Of a DNA stretch of 53,819 bases, positions 2,557-39,108 are shown piece by piece. The notes beneath the pieces were generated by a model, which was not told the DNA's origin, ran no database searches, and saw nothing but the letters and a program-made list of their open reading frames with translations. Position numbers and translations under genes: made by a program. Position 1 is the first letter of the stretch; each line of letters opens with the position of its first letter. The stretch spans positions 1 to 53,819 of the forward strand of contig NZ_JASJEB010000047.1 in assembly GCF_030064895.1 (NCBI RefSeq). Reading direction: 5' to 3'. This DNA is from Crocosphaera sp. (lineage in GTDB: Bacteria; Cyanobacteriota; Cyanobacteriia; Cyanobacteriales; Microcystaceae).

Positions 2557-2568
2557 AATTCCTTGTCT

Positions 2569-5500
2569 ATGTCAGAAAAAGAACCAACACCATCATCTGT
2601 TGAGGAATCAGTAACCTCTACGAATATCCGAAGGGAAGCAAGAGAAAAAAGAGTCCAAACTGTTCTAAAATTTTTAAAAATGTTGGGGCTACCAGTTTCG
2701 GTAACTGGAGTCACAGGGACAATTATATTACTGCAAAATGGTCAATACAAATTAGCTGTTATTACAATTGTGATTAGTGTATTGGCTTTAGTTATAGCGA
2801 TATGGGGAAATTTTTTCTTACGAGTAATAAATCGTACTTTAGACTTAATAGAAGAAGAGTTAGAGAACATAGAAGAACCCATAGCACAATGGATTGTTAA
2901 GCAATTCAAAACTATTCCTGTACGGTTATGGTGGCAATTCAATCTAAAGTTCAAGGATCGATATTATGAGAGTTTAATTGATACCTTTAGAGAACTAAAA
3001 ATAGAAGGGTTTAGGATTGGTTTACCAGCATTAGATTTAGAAGATATTTTTGTTTCTTTGCGAGTTAAAACAGGAACACCTGATAAAATTCGAGGCAGAA
3101 TTATTACAAGACAATCAGATAATGAACAAAGAGAAATTTGGGAATTTTTAAAGAATAATCAGGGGAAATTTCGAGCCTATCGCCGTTTAGCTGTGATTGC
3201 TTCTCCCGGCTCAGGAAAAACCACTCTTCTCAAGCATTTAACCCTAACCTATGCCAAAAAGCAACATAACAAATATCAAGCACCCAATTTCATTCCTGTA
3301 TTATTATATCTGCGAGATATTCGTCATCAACTTGTCACAGAAAATCCTCCTTCACTGTCACAATTGATTCGAGAACATATTGAAAATCTGCCCTCAGAAC
3401 CTCCTTTAACCTTACCCCCTAATTGGATTGAGGATCAGTTAAGATTAGGAAAATGCCTAGTCATGCTCGATGGACTTGATGAGGTTGCCAACGCCCATGA
3501 AAGAAATGCGGTAAGTGCCTGGGTTAACCAGCAGATGAAGGTGTATCGGCAAACAGTTTTCATAGTCACTTCTCGGCCTCATGGGTTCCAAAGTGCGCCA
3601 ATAGAGCGAGTGGGAACTGTCTTAGAAGTGCTTCCCTTCAACCCACAGCAGGTAGAAGACTTTATTCGTAGTCTGTATCAGCAAAATGAAATTATGAGAA
3701 CCGGACGGGAAACCCCTGCGGTACTCAGAGAAGCAGAAACCTTATCTGATGATTTAATTACCCGAATTCAAGAGAAACCTGCGATCGCCGATATGGCCAG
3801 AAATCCTCTTCTAGTGACCATGATTGCTACAGTACATTATTGTGGCAGTGCTTTGCCCGGTCGTCGTGTGGAACTGTATCAGAAAATTTGTGATTTACTA
3901 TTGGGTGCGCGACAACAAGCGAAAAAAATAAAAGTGCCATTGACGGGGGAACAAAATAAGTCTGTCTTGCAAGTTTTGGCCTTATCTTTAATGCAAGCAA
4001 AAACCCGCGAATTTTCTTTAGAGTTAGGAACAGAAATCATACAAGAAGAACTAGGAAAGGTTGCTGGAAATACCTTAACAGGGAAAGAATTTCTCAAACA
4101 AATTAAAGAAATAAGTGGCTTATTAGTGGAAAAAGAACTGAAAACTTATGAATTTGCTCACTTAAGTTTCCAAGAATACCTCGCTGCCTCAGAAATTAAA
4201 GAATTGCAACAAGAATCTATATTAATTGACAACTTTCAAGATCCTTGGTGGGCCGAAACAATTCGTCTCTATGCTGCCCAAACTAATGCCACTTCTTTGA
4301 TTCAAGCAGGGATTAAAACCCCAACAGTTCACTCATTAGTGTTAGCTTTAGACTGTAAGGAAGAACGTTTAAAAGTTGACCCAGAAATCAGAGAACAATT
4401 AGACACCATTTTAGAACAAGGGTTAGAATCTAATAACCCTGAAATTGCCACCTTGGCTGCACAAGTTAAATTATCACGACGACTGAGTAATTTAACGACT
4501 ATGGACGATAATCTTTATATTGATTCTTTCTACATTACCTGTGCAGAGTATCAACTTTTCATGGATGACGATGACTTATTCTATTCAGGAGAGCATTTTG
4601 CCCCTGGAAGTGCTAAACAACCCATTACCGAAGTCAGTTGGCTGAATGGGATGCGTTTTTGTCTCTGGTTAACTGCTAAAGCACCATCCTTGACTCGTAA
4701 GAGTGCGTCTGAGTCTACTGTTTTCTTTTTCAGACTGCCAACCTTGGAGGAAGTGCAAAATTATCACCCCAGAGAACATGAAGACTTAGGCTGTTTAACC
4801 CTAGAGGAAACTGGGGACAGTCATCAGCAAAATCAGGGTATTCGTCTCGTTAAAACCCCAATACGACCTTCTCTGTATGGAGTGGAAACATTCAGTTTCA
4901 ATGGATTTGAAGGTGTTACCGCTAACGCACAAGGACAAGAAAGTCAACGTCGGCGTGAAATTTATTGGTATTTTACTGAGAATTTAGGAAAAGAGGTCGA
5001 TTTGGAGCTAGTATATATTCCTGGGGGAGCCTTTACAATGGGTTCTCCTGAAACTGAAAAAGGAAGTCTTAATCGTGAACGTCCTCAACATCAAGTTACT
5101 GTTTCTCCATTCTTTATGGGGAAATATCCTGTAACTCAGGCACAATGGAGAGCGATCGCTTCTCGAACAGATTTAAAGGTAGAAATCGACTTAAAACCTA
5201 ATCCCTCTTATTTTAAAGGGGATGAGCGCCCTGTGGAAACAGTTTATTGGTATGAAGCGGTAGAGTTTTGTCAAAGATTATCTAAGCTAACAGGAAGAGA
5301 CTATAGACTACCCAGTGAAGCCGAATGGGAATATGCTTGTCGAGCCGTGAGAAAACCCCTAAACCTAGAACAAGGCGAATCTTATCCTCCGTTTCATTTT
5401 GGAGATACCATCACCGATCAATTAGCTAATTATTCTGCTTCTAATACTTACGCCAATGAACCCAAGGGAAAAGATAGAAGAGAAACTACCCCTGTTGGTC

Positions 5501-5835
5501 AATTCCCCCCCAATGCTTTTGGATTATACGATATGCACGGAAATGTTTGGGAATGGTGTTTAGATCCTTGGCATGATGATTACAACGGCGCACCCTCTGA
5601 TGGTAGCGTCTGGGGTGGGCAAAACCGAACTAATAACTCTACTTCTGTTCATCGTTTATTTGTAAACAATATTCAAAAACAATTGACAAAAGAACGATAT
5701 TATGCAGGTCGCGGCGGTTCGTTCAACAATGGTCCGCGCTATTGCCGGTCTGCGTCTCGCGACTACGACGGCGCGTGCGTTAACGTCCTCGGTTTTCGTG
5801 TTGTGTGTGTTCTCCCCAGGACTGGAAATCAGTGA
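2569..5835 (+). CDS. Membrane-anchored NACHT (STAND) NTPase fused to FGE-like/C-type-lectin-fold domain; putative DGR target
   Basis: A protein of about 1088 residues. Two hydrophobic segments at about 45-85 suggest a membrane hairpin. A NACHT NTPase module follows, with P-loop ASPGSGKTTLL (about 211-221) and Walker B CLVMLDGLDEV (about 296-306). Residues about 640-740 look like a degenerate FGE-sulfatase module, and about 815-1085 is a fuller one (VYIPGGAFTMGSP, RLPSEAEWEYACRA, GLYDMHGNVWEWC, RGGSF, LGFRVV). The last part is GC-rich, unlike the rest of the gene, and matches the variable-region layout of DGR target proteins (see findings). NACHT STAND proteins sense ligands and oligomerise; cyanobacterial DGRs are known to diversify such proteins. 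A TTG two codons upstream is an alternative start. No reverse transcriptase or template repeat is present in the window. Confidence 0.88.
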   Translation: MSEKEPTPSSVEESVTSTNIRREAREKRVQTVLKFLKMLGLPVSVTGVTGTIILLQNGQYKLAVITIVISVLALVIAIWGNFFLRVINRTLDLIEEELENIEEPIAQWIVKQFKTIPVRLWWQFNLKFKDRYYESLIDTFRELKIEGFRIGLPALDLEDIFVSLRVKTGTPDKIRGRIITRQSDNEQREIWEFLKNNQGKFRAYRRLAVIASPGSGKTTLLKHLTLTYAKKQHNKYQAPNFIPVLLYLRDIRHQLVTENPPSLSQLIREHIENLPSEPPLTLPPNWIEDQLRLGKCLVMLDGLDEVANAHERNAVSAWVNQQMKVYRQTVFIVTSRPHGFQSAPIERVGTVLEVLPFNPQQVEDFIRSLYQQNEIMRTGRETPAVLREAETLSDDLITRIQEKPAIADMARNPLLVTMIATVHYCGSALPGRRVELYQKICDLLLGARQQAKKIKVPLTGEQNKSVLQVLALSLMQAKTREFSLELGTEIIQEELGKVAGNTLTGKEFLKQIKEISGLLVEKELKTYEFAHLSFQEYLAASEIKELQQESILIDNFQDPWWAETIRLYAAQTNATSLIQAGIKTPTVHSLVLALDCKEERLKVDPEIREQLDTILEQGLESNNPEIATLAAQVKLSRRLSNLTTMDDNLYIDSFYITCAEYQLFMDDDDLFYSGEHFAPGSAKQPITEVSWLNGMRFCLWLTAKAPSLTRKSASESTVFFFRLPTLEEVQNYHPREHEDLGCLTLEETGDSHQQNQGIRLVKTPIRPSLYGVETFSFNGFEGVTANAQGQESQRRREIYWYFTENLGKEVDLELVYIPGGAFTMGSPETEKGSLNRERPQHQVTVSPFFMGKYPVTQAQWRAIASRTDLKVEIDLKPNPSYFKGDERPVETVYWYEAVEFCQRLSKLTGRDYRLPSEAEWEYACRAVRKPLNLEQGESYPPFHFGDTITDQLANYSASNTYANEPKGKDRRETTPVGQFPPNAFGLYDMHGNVWEWCLDPWHDDYNGAPSDGSVWGGQNRTNNSTSVHRLFVNNIQKQLTKERYYAGRGGSFNNGPRYCRSASRDYDGACVNVLGFRVVCVLPRTGNQ
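5707..5820 (+). other. Putative DGR variable region (VR)
   Basis: This is the 3' terminal coding part of the NACHT-FGE gene. GC is 56 of 87 bases from 5707 to 5793, against an AT-rich surround. Between the conserved blocks RGGSFNN and LGFRVVCV, the codons ggt, tat, tct, gac, tac, gac, ggc, tgc, gtt and gtc all end in C or T and could each derive from AAC or AAT by changes at the first two positions only. This is the signature of adenine-directed mutagenic retrohoming. The shared 3' block (about 5790-5820) would be the homing-initiation end. The template repeat and reverse transcriptase must lie elsewhere. Confidence 0.7.
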
Positions 5836-5837
5836 AA

Positions 5838-5858
5838 AGTTATCAGTTATCAGTTATC
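5838..5858. repeat. Tandem heptamer, three copies of AGTTATC
   Basis: Three perfect AGTTATC units follow directly after the NACHT-FGE stop codon. Similar CAGTTATCAGT-type sequence occurs at 1676-1697 and, in the other orientation, at 14318-14360, so it is a dispersed STRR family. Confidence 0.8.
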
Positions 5859-5991
5859 AGTGAGGAATTATGAATAGTATAGTAGATGATAGCAATTTTC
5901 ATTTGCATAGATTACAAACTCAAAGAAAAATACTCCCCACACTTCCCACCCCTCCTACACTCCCCACCCTCACTAAACCAAGTTCCTTGTA

Positions 5992-37504: not shown

Positions 37505-38068
37505 TTAAATTTAGTATTAACATTTATTGAAGAATATGGAGAATCAAGTAATACTGATAAAAATATCAGTAAGTTAGTCATGGAGGTTATAACAAAAATT
37601 AGAGAAGATAAAGAAAAAGGGAAAGTTCTAAGTACAAAAGAAATCGGGGATACAGGAGAAGCTTTAGTAATTCAGCACGAAAAAAATCGGTTACATAAAC
37701 ATGGTCGAGATGATCTAGTTCACTTAGTTGTTAAAATACCTGAAAACTTAGCAGTAGGCTACGATATCAAATCTTACGAAGTAAACAACGAAGAATTAAG
37801 ATATATTGAAGTGAAAACTACAACAAGTATTGGAAAGCTGGCAACTAAATCATTTTGTATGTCGACCAATGAATGGAGAACAGCAAAAAGTGCAAGGGAG
37901 AAATACTACATTTATAGACTTATGATATCAAAAAAAGACATCTCCTTGTTTATCATTCAAGATCCTGTAGGCAAGGAAAGACAAGACCTTCTAAACATGA
38001 TTCCACGCAACGGTGCTGATATTACCTATCAGGAAAGTGCTGGCTATTGGGAGGAACTTTTGGCATGA
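37490..38068 (+). CDS. DUF3883 nuclease-like protein, probable restriction subunit of an R-M pair
   Basis: The product has up to 192 residues. The DUF3883 core, AVGYDIKSYEVNNEELRYIEVKTTTS, contains the PD-(D/E)xK-type D...ExK arrangement, with the later FCMSTNEWRTAKSAREKYYIYRL block. It overlaps the cytosine methyltransferase gene by ATGA, so the two are co-translated, and I infer that it is the cognate endonuclease. The 5' end is unclear. The open frame begins with a TTG inside a hairpin repeat, and the first ATG is at 37580 (162 aa), yet the residues before it look coding (FIEEYGESSNTDKNISKLV). The gene may have lost its start to the repeat. Confidence 0.75.
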   Translation: MLTLPLNLVLTFIEEYGESSNTDKNISKLVMEVITKIREDKEKGKVLSTKEIGDTGEALVIQHEKNRLHKHGRDDLVHLVVKIPENLAVGYDIKSYEVNNEELRYIEVKTTTSIGKLATKSFCMSTNEWRTAKSAREKYYIYRLMISKKDISLFIIQDPVGKERQDLLNMIPRNGADITYQESAGYWEELLA

Positions 38069-39108
38069 AAAAAAAACAGATTTATACCATAGCATCTTTA
38101 TTTAGTGGTTGCGGAGGGATGGACTTGGGTGCTGAAGGAGGATTTCAATTTCTCCATAAAAACTATAAAAAACTTCCAATTAAAATTGTATATTCTCTGG
38201 ATTGGGAGCCATCAGCAGCTAAAATTTATGATGCTAATTTTAGTCTTAAATGTCATGTAGCAGATATTAGAAATGTGCCATCAAAACAGATTCCAAACCA
38301 TGATATTTTGACTGGAGGATTTCCCTGCCAATCATTTTCTGTAGTAGCCCAAAATCCAAAACGTTTAGGATACAAAGATGAAAAAGGTAAACTATTTTTT
38401 GAAATGTGCCGAGTTATTCGCTCCAAAAAACCAAAAGTTTTCATTGCTGAAAACGTTAAAGGCATATTGTCAGCGAATAAGAAGGAAGCTTTTCCTTTAA
38501 TAGTAAAAGAATTTGAAAATTGTGGTTACTATGTTACTTATGCAACTCTCAATTCTTCCCATTTTGGAGTGCCACAAAAACGAGAGCGCGTCTTTATAAT
38601 TGGCTTTAAAAATAAGTCCGTTTTTGATGATTTTAAATTTCCAGAACCTACAACTTTTAATAAGCCTCCAATCCTAGCACAAGTATTAGAAAATGAAAGC
38701 GAGATAGACAACAAATACTATTTTAGTGAAAGAGCGATCGCCGGACTTCAAAAAACAAAACACTTTACTTCAATGAATAAAGGGCGTGTGCAATCTCTTG
38801 ATAAACCATGTAATACACTGGGAGCGCATCTTGCTAAAGTTAGCATCAACAGCACTGACCCAATACTATTAATTAATAATCGCTATAGAATGTTTACCCC
38901 AAGAGAAGTGGCACGTATTCAATCGTTTCCAGAGAGTTTTAAACTACCAGGAGCTAAGACTGCTCTTTATAGAGCTTTGGGAAATGCGGTTCCACCCGTA
39001 TTAATGTGGGAGGTAACCAATAGTGTTATTGAAGCGATGATACAAGTAAAGAACTTAGAACAAAAGAGACCAAGATATAAACAACTAGAGCTAGACTTAC
39101 TAGTTTAA
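38065..39108 (+). CDS. C5-cytosine DNA methyltransferase
   Basis: The 347-residue protein has the ordered motifs of 5-methylcytosine methyltransferases. These are I, SLFSGCGGMDLGAEGG; IV, TGGFPCQSFS with the catalytic Cys; VI, AENVKG; VIII, PQKRERVFIIGF; IX, RMFTPREVARIQSFP; and X, GNAVPP. It uses S-adenosylmethionine. The ATG at 38065 overlaps the end of the DUF3883 gene. The target-recognition region (about 230-290) is present but its recognised sequence cannot be read. It probably protects against the adjacent nuclease. Confidence 0.95.
   Translation: MKKKQIYTIASLFSGCGGMDLGAEGGFQFLHKNYKKLPIKIVYSLDWEPSAAKIYDANFSLKCHVADIRNVPSKQIPNHDILTGGFPCQSFSVVAQNPKRLGYKDEKGKLFFEMCRVIRSKKPKVFIAENVKGILSANKKEAFPLIVKEFENCGYYVTYATLNSSHFGVPQKRERVFIIGFKNKSVFDDFKFPEPTTFNKPPILAQVLENESEIDNKYYFSERAIAGLQKTKHFTSMNKGRVQSLDKPCNTLGAHLAKVSINSTDPILLINNRYRMFTPREVARIQSFPESFKLPGAKTALYRALGNAVPPVLMWEVTNSVIEAMIQVKNLEQKRPRYKQLELDLLV

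Follow-up and report, generated by a model that had tools for sequence, protein, structure and literature searches.

The last codons of a NACHT-FGE gene in a 53,819-nucleotide stretch of Crocosphaera DNA (contig C28 of its genome; the whole stretch is called the window here) differ in composition from the rest of the gene, which raises the question of whether they are a variable region (VR) written in trans by a diversity-generating retroelement (DGR). An earlier note, made from the letters only, had proposed this and had predicted an A-rich near-copy beside a reverse transcriptase (RT) and an Avd gene elsewhere in the genome; such a copy, with both genes, is found on contig C39 of the same genome.

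The variable gene end and its template

An overview of the features of the target gene and of the C39 cassette is given in Table 1. Pfam finds NACHT (2e-12) and FGE-sulfatase (2.9e-57) domains in the protein, and an ATG is present inside its frame at 2569. The likely membrane segment is predicted from 19-residue hydropathy windows above 1.6, which begin at residues 59–72. Concerning the C-terminal region, the proposed FGE/C-type-lectin-like fold is borne out by Pfam, by an AlphaFold model of residues 780–1090 (pLDDT 81.5) and by Foldseek, which places PvdO first among solved folds and next TvpA, a DGR variable protein of Treponema (2y3c; rank 3, E 4.4e-17); the VR lies at the 3′ end of the gene coding for this fold. 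PADLOC assigns the protein to no curated defence family and gives three weak matches, all in the P-loop region and with E 0.003 at best, the NCBIfam match to EruA reaches 23.5 bits against a cut-off of 1000, and no GUN4 domain is found by Pfam. A dispersed intergenic repeat with many genome copies (identity up to 97%) is located just 3′ of the gene, at 5889–5982.

Table 1 Features of the target gene (window positions) and of the DGR cassette and its neighbours (positions on contig C39)
Feature	Position	Strand	Evidence
Target gene, 1090-aa NACHT-FGE protein	2563–5835	+	Open frame; Pfam NACHT and FGE-sulfatase
Hydrophobic stretch, residues about 59–90, likely membrane segment (prediction)	2737–2832	+	Hydropathy
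NACHT NTPase domain, residues 211–371	3193–3675	+	Pfam; P-loop GSGKTT at 216, LVMLDGLDE at 299
FGE/C-type-lectin-like domain, residues 815–1081	5005–5805	+	Pfam; AlphaFold; Foldseek
Variable region (VR), 38 codons, residues 1050–1087	5710–5823	+	Matches TR at C39:9888–9998
Constant 3′ block, 29 bases, adjoining IMH-like end	5791–5819	+	Four perfect genome copies
EAD1-trypsin	C39 959–1996		
EAD1-VMAP	C39 2435–4000		
AAA ATPase, taken as MoxR component	C39 4015–5118		MoxR-like position
FGE target with SAV_2336 N-terminal domain, carries VR1	C39 5111–8035		
Avd	C39 8150–8599		NF033474, 136.5 bits against cut-off 80
RT	C39 8609–9679		RVT_1 1.9e-23; GLPIGNLTSQ and YVDD motifs
Template repeat (TR), A-rich, 111 bases, 37 codons	C39 9888–9998		
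FGE-only target, carries VR2	C39 10157–11023		

The VR has the length of 38 codons first proposed for it, but not the position: it had been placed at 5707–5820, as the last 38 codons of the gene, and three more codons follow the VR before the stop at 5833–5835. The GC count reported for 5707–5793 (56 of 87 bases) is correct; it is the highest 87-base value in the whole window, reached only at starts 5704–5707, and nowhere in the gene upstream of 5706 do 87 bases hold more than 47 G or C. Chance GC content or codon bias was rejected as an explanation because the predicted template exists.

Searching the genome with window positions 5650–5840 gave seven matches, three of them on C39. The C39 features of Table 1 are all on one strand, among other frames, and the DGR adjoins a VMAP ternary conflict system. 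The RT carries a GxxxSQ-type motif, which we take to be a mark of DGR-type RTs, and both the RT and Avd frames are open. As had been stated, the window contains no RT: all 23 RVT_1 matches of the genome lie outside contig C28.

Two further DGRs are found in the genome. The second (L017, G000:C34:987-6517) is intact, with a caspase-FGE target, Avd, RT, TR and an FGE target. The third (L018, G000:C177:36050-42560, minus strand) has a broken RT frame, in which, after GLP, an insert takes the place of the segment bearing SQ and YVDD in the C39 RT; the insert contains a gene at 37720–38085, labelled four-helix-bundle-like by eye, with short repeats on both sides. Between a common CGC and GGT, the C177 template is one codon longer than its two VRs; the template of another genus genome (G003) fits the C177 VRs. 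A kinase-FGE gene on contig C155 (L019:6622-8610; G000:C155:36621-38609) also carries a VR, and its kinase part matches PADLOC family PD-T4-6 with 340 bits. Rfam gave no match at gathering scores on the C39 and C34 DGR loci.

A hairpin downstream of the VR is described for phage BPP-1; we know of no requirement for it in cyanobacteria. The 70 bases after the window VR form no strong hairpin (z -0.2), and in a scan after six VRs a strong one is seen only at C155 (z -3.8), followed by the first VR of C34 (z -2.0).

Adenine-specific copying from template to target

Alignment with the C39 TR shows 13 of its 25 adenines, and 3 of its 86 remaining bases, altered in the window VR (Fisher p 6.7e-8), with agreement at the other 83 non-adenine positions. 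The codon gap between the two was placed for the fewest non-adenine mismatches, and a gapped pairwise alignment gave the same 13 and 3. The three non-adenine changes are CGC to TGC, a T to C which depends on gap placement, and the C/G difference at the 3′ end. Ten codons had been listed earlier as all derivable from AAC or AAT. Based on the template this stands for six of them (ggt, tat, gac, tac, gac and ggc) and fails for four: tct and gtt descend from TAT and GAT, tgc faces CGC and thus shows no adenine change, and gtc sits where the VR exceeds the TR by one codon and has no definite template parent. Two other variable codons were missing from that list, namely ttc (codon 5, from TAC) and ctc (codon 27).

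The same preference is seen in the other template–target pairs. In VR1 and VR2, 8 and 12 of the 25 adenines are changed, and 1 and 4 of the 86 other bases; the two VRs of the C34 element differ from their template at 16 and 14 of 32 adenines (1 of 88 others each), and the VR of the same-genus genome G004 from its own TR at 8 of 26 (1 of 85 others). The C155 VR, aligned ungapped with the C39 TR, is changed at 15/25 adenines and 10/86 other bases; a gapped alignment gives 15 adenine changes, two single-base gaps and substitutions at five other bases. This poorer fit is what would be expected of a copy that is older or was made from a different template. At the 3′ end a difference of the IMH versus IMH* type is present: the TRs read CAGCACT and all seven VRs compared (window, VR1, VR2, C155, the two of C34 and G004) have G for the second C, the full CAGGACT being found in five of the seven. 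In the window the putative IMH-like end, which adjoins the constant block, reads CCCCAGG against CCCCAGC in the template.

An alternative is that the FGE tail arose by ordinary duplication or gene conversion, with selection on surface residues and no retroelement. The concentration of differences at template adenines is against this, as is codon usage. Residues identical to those of the window FGE protein were compared, leaving out M and W, in the VR (1050–1087) and in the preceding domain part (815–1049). The codon is the same for 24/24 residues inside the VR and 64/122 outside it in the VR1 gene, for 27/27 and 56/116 in the VR2 gene, and for 21/21 and 60/115 in the C155 gene; codon identity over these three sister targets is thus 100% inside the VR and 48–53% in the domain part. 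For the targets of the C34 template it is raised but not total in the VR (15/21 and 13/18; outside 52/130 and 69/123). In favour of duplication, the window and VR2 have their extra codon at the same position, share a CTC before GGT, and carry the same base at 4–6 of the 9–11 adenine sites changed in both, depending on gap placement. Against 1/3, the shared bases give a binomial p of 0.35 to 0.08, and they may be due to chance or to partial copying between VRs. Moreover, 11 of the 38 codons are not the same in the two VRs; nine of these bear adenine in the template or lie at the place of the added codon. Residues shared by the two proteins have identical codons throughout the VR even though the rest of the domain is saturated. 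We therefore rejected duplication with selection, which appears very improbable given the adenine specificity and the total codon identity inside the VR.

It is also conceivable that a different template (that of C34 or C177, or one absent from the assembly) wrote the VR last, since the VR differs by one codon in length from the C39 TR and the assembly consists of 188 contigs and is 98% complete. Among 13 genome matches to the C39 TR (E up to 1), those of C34 and C177 differ at many non-adenine bases, and both were excluded as the writer for this reason. Four perfect copies of the constant 29-base block are found in 5.5 Mb, in the TR, VR1, VR2 and the window; C155 has it with two mismatches, no other genome site holds it with up to two mismatches, and a reversed-pattern control gave no match in the genome. 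Writing by any template other than that of C39 is thus considered unlikely.

A comparison with G004 agrees with copying within each genome. The TRs of the two genomes differ at five codons; the window VR has the form of its own genome at all five, as do VR1, VR2 and C155, and the G004 VR has the G004 form. The comparison does not polarise the change, i.e. either form may be the older one, but template and targets agree within each genome as concerted copying predicts.

Taken together, the adenine bias, the codon identity inside the VR and the 29-base block found at the TR and its targets indicate that the window gene was written in trans, and we regard it as very likely that its end is a remote DGR target of the C39 template. 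The earlier proposal of a trans target therefore holds for the history of the sequence: adenine-specific copying from template to VR is established at this level. By analogy with known DGRs, RNA of the C39 template repeat would be reverse-transcribed by a complex of the RT and Avd encoded beside it, random bases would be placed opposite the template adenines, and the cDNA would replace the window VR, guided by the common GC-rich 3′ block.

Length change and possible present activity

In DGRs, VR and TR are usually, though not always, of equal length. Here they are not: the window VR, VR1 and VR2 have 38 codons each against 37 in the TR. In VR1 the extra codon lies in an AAC run, whereas in VR2 and the window it precedes GGT. 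We surveyed 98 loci of at least 4 kb, which were chosen as relatives and some of which overlap, keeping rows in which adenines accounted for 75% or more of the mismatches. Of the 31 candidate TR–VR rows, a few of which are reverse-oriented and may be chance, the VR carries a 3-base insertion in four (C39 accounts for two of these) and a 1-base insertion in one, and a further locus (L100), probably no true pair, has four 1-base insertions; no deletions were seen in these 31 rows. The extra codon is likewise in or beside an AAC run at loci L072 and L079. Slippage in threes on AAC repeats was proposed previously (Wu 2018, as cited in PMC12875486). In G004 both TR and VR have 37 codons, which leans towards slippage at the time of writing rather than a later loss from the TR as the origin of the extra codon in the window. 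The CTC common to the window and VR2 is not accounted for by simple AAC AAT slippage.

Concerning present activity, the VR could be a fossil, written by the DGR in the past and now fixed, with selection keeping one useful variant; as this is compatible with the same copying history, it competes only with the claim that writing continues. Besides the C/G at the end, one codon and one to two non-adenine bases separate the VR from the present TR, and DGR decay is seen in the same genome, where the C177 element lacks the YxDD-bearing part of its RT and has a TR that has ceased to match its VRs in length. The state of the G007 genome also bears on this. Among nine genus genomes a single full-length match to the window protein is found only in its own genome (G000). 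G007 has an orthologue covering residues 2–728 at 87–92% identity, in three pieces that belong to the same locus, as the upstream flank matches over 1805 bases (92%). At the joints, neighbouring pieces share 5 or 6 bases, and frames adjoining the second and third match transposase families; splitting by insertion sequences would be the simplest reading, and an assembly misjoin is a second one. The FGE end of this orthologue was not found in the G007 assembly, where the contig with the downstream gene is without it and the best match to the window FGE domain has 62% identity. A C39-like RT (E up to 1e-40) is present in three of the nine genomes (G000, G003 and G005) and was not found in G007 at this threshold; the G004 contig ends just beyond the TR, where the RT would lie. 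On the other side, all VR residues held in common with the cis targets use identical codons, the 29-base block is perfect in the window while that of C155 has drifted by two bases, and the C39 RT and Avd frames are open. A fossil VR seems to us possible but rather doubtful, and trans writing of the window VR may be ongoing today.

Among the matches listed in a wider search (80 named loci of at least 574), the only one across both the NACHT and FGE parts is a NACHT-GUN4-FGE protein of a Pseudanabaenales MAG (L066:569-3982), with GUN4 between the other two domains. A paralogue in the window's own genome (L191, G000:C148:35092-37101) is of the NACHT-GUN4 type without a Pfam FGE domain.

Through a rewritten tail, a membrane sensor would be able to alter its binding face, as the earlier note had suggested. 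We lean slightly towards such a role, in which a membrane-anchored STAND NTPase would present a ligand-binding face that can be varied, probably to detect invaders. A broader reading can be offered only tentatively: one 111-base template may serve four sensor heads on four chassis in one cell (the ternary-system FGE, the lone FGE, the kinase-FGE and the membrane NACHT-FGE proteins), with AAC slippage also altering loop length by whole codons. If true, this would be a common, length-variable receptor repertoire in a probably unicellular cyanobacterium.

Comparison with known systems

Published work already covers trans targets, STAND-FGE targets with DGRs, and AAC slippage, and the window gene is a well-supported further case. 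For cyanobacterial DGRs, 76 remote targets were reported among 219 orthologues in 21 genomes (Vallota-Eastman 2020, PMC7517822). The present element resembles these in its RT–TR cassette, a C-terminal CLec target, scattered targets and kinase-CLec targets. Targets were accepted there at a TR identity above 50%, whereas nearly all non-adenine positions agree here. As DGRs are also reported there from certain unicellular species, a unicellular host is by itself no novelty; the word NACHT does not occur in the available text of that paper. An older source (PMC3610870), in its available part, has DGRs in Nodularia and not in Crocosphaera.

The DGRs of Thiohalocapsa PB-PSB1 (Dore 2024, PMC10907252) likewise have trans targets that match a remote TR at non-adenine sites, and NACHT/STAND and ternary-system targets are among them. 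Diversification was demonstrated in a population of that organism, whereas the window case is known from the sequence of one genome. The related cyanobacterial RT clade is described there as almost exclusively multicellular (63 of 64 characterised species), in contrast to the probably unicellular Crocosphaera host. The window gene is a clear-cut example of a STAND-type receptor gene whose tail was written from a template on a different contig, and with it trans diversification of immune-receptor-like proteins can be tested within one genome; the authors of a large metagenome survey state that their own method would miss such remote targets (PMC8144416). The extra codons would provide natural examples of how this DGR machinery alters length in frame.

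As in the VMAP ternary conflict systems (Kaur 2020, PMC7159879), the C39 DGR lies beside EAD1-trypsin, EAD1-VMAP and an AAA ATPase in the MoxR position; unlike the members of such loci, the window gene lies outside the C39 locus as a separate trans target. A likeness in architecture is seen to the STAND NTPase-FGS conflict systems (Kaur 2021, PMC8195603), in which a NACHT-clade STAND is fused to FGS (FGE), the DGR lies nearby or elsewhere in the genome, and invader sensing was proposed. Those proteins carry an N-terminal death-like or other effector-associated domain, whereas in the window protein Pfam finds none and a hydrophobic stretch takes its place.
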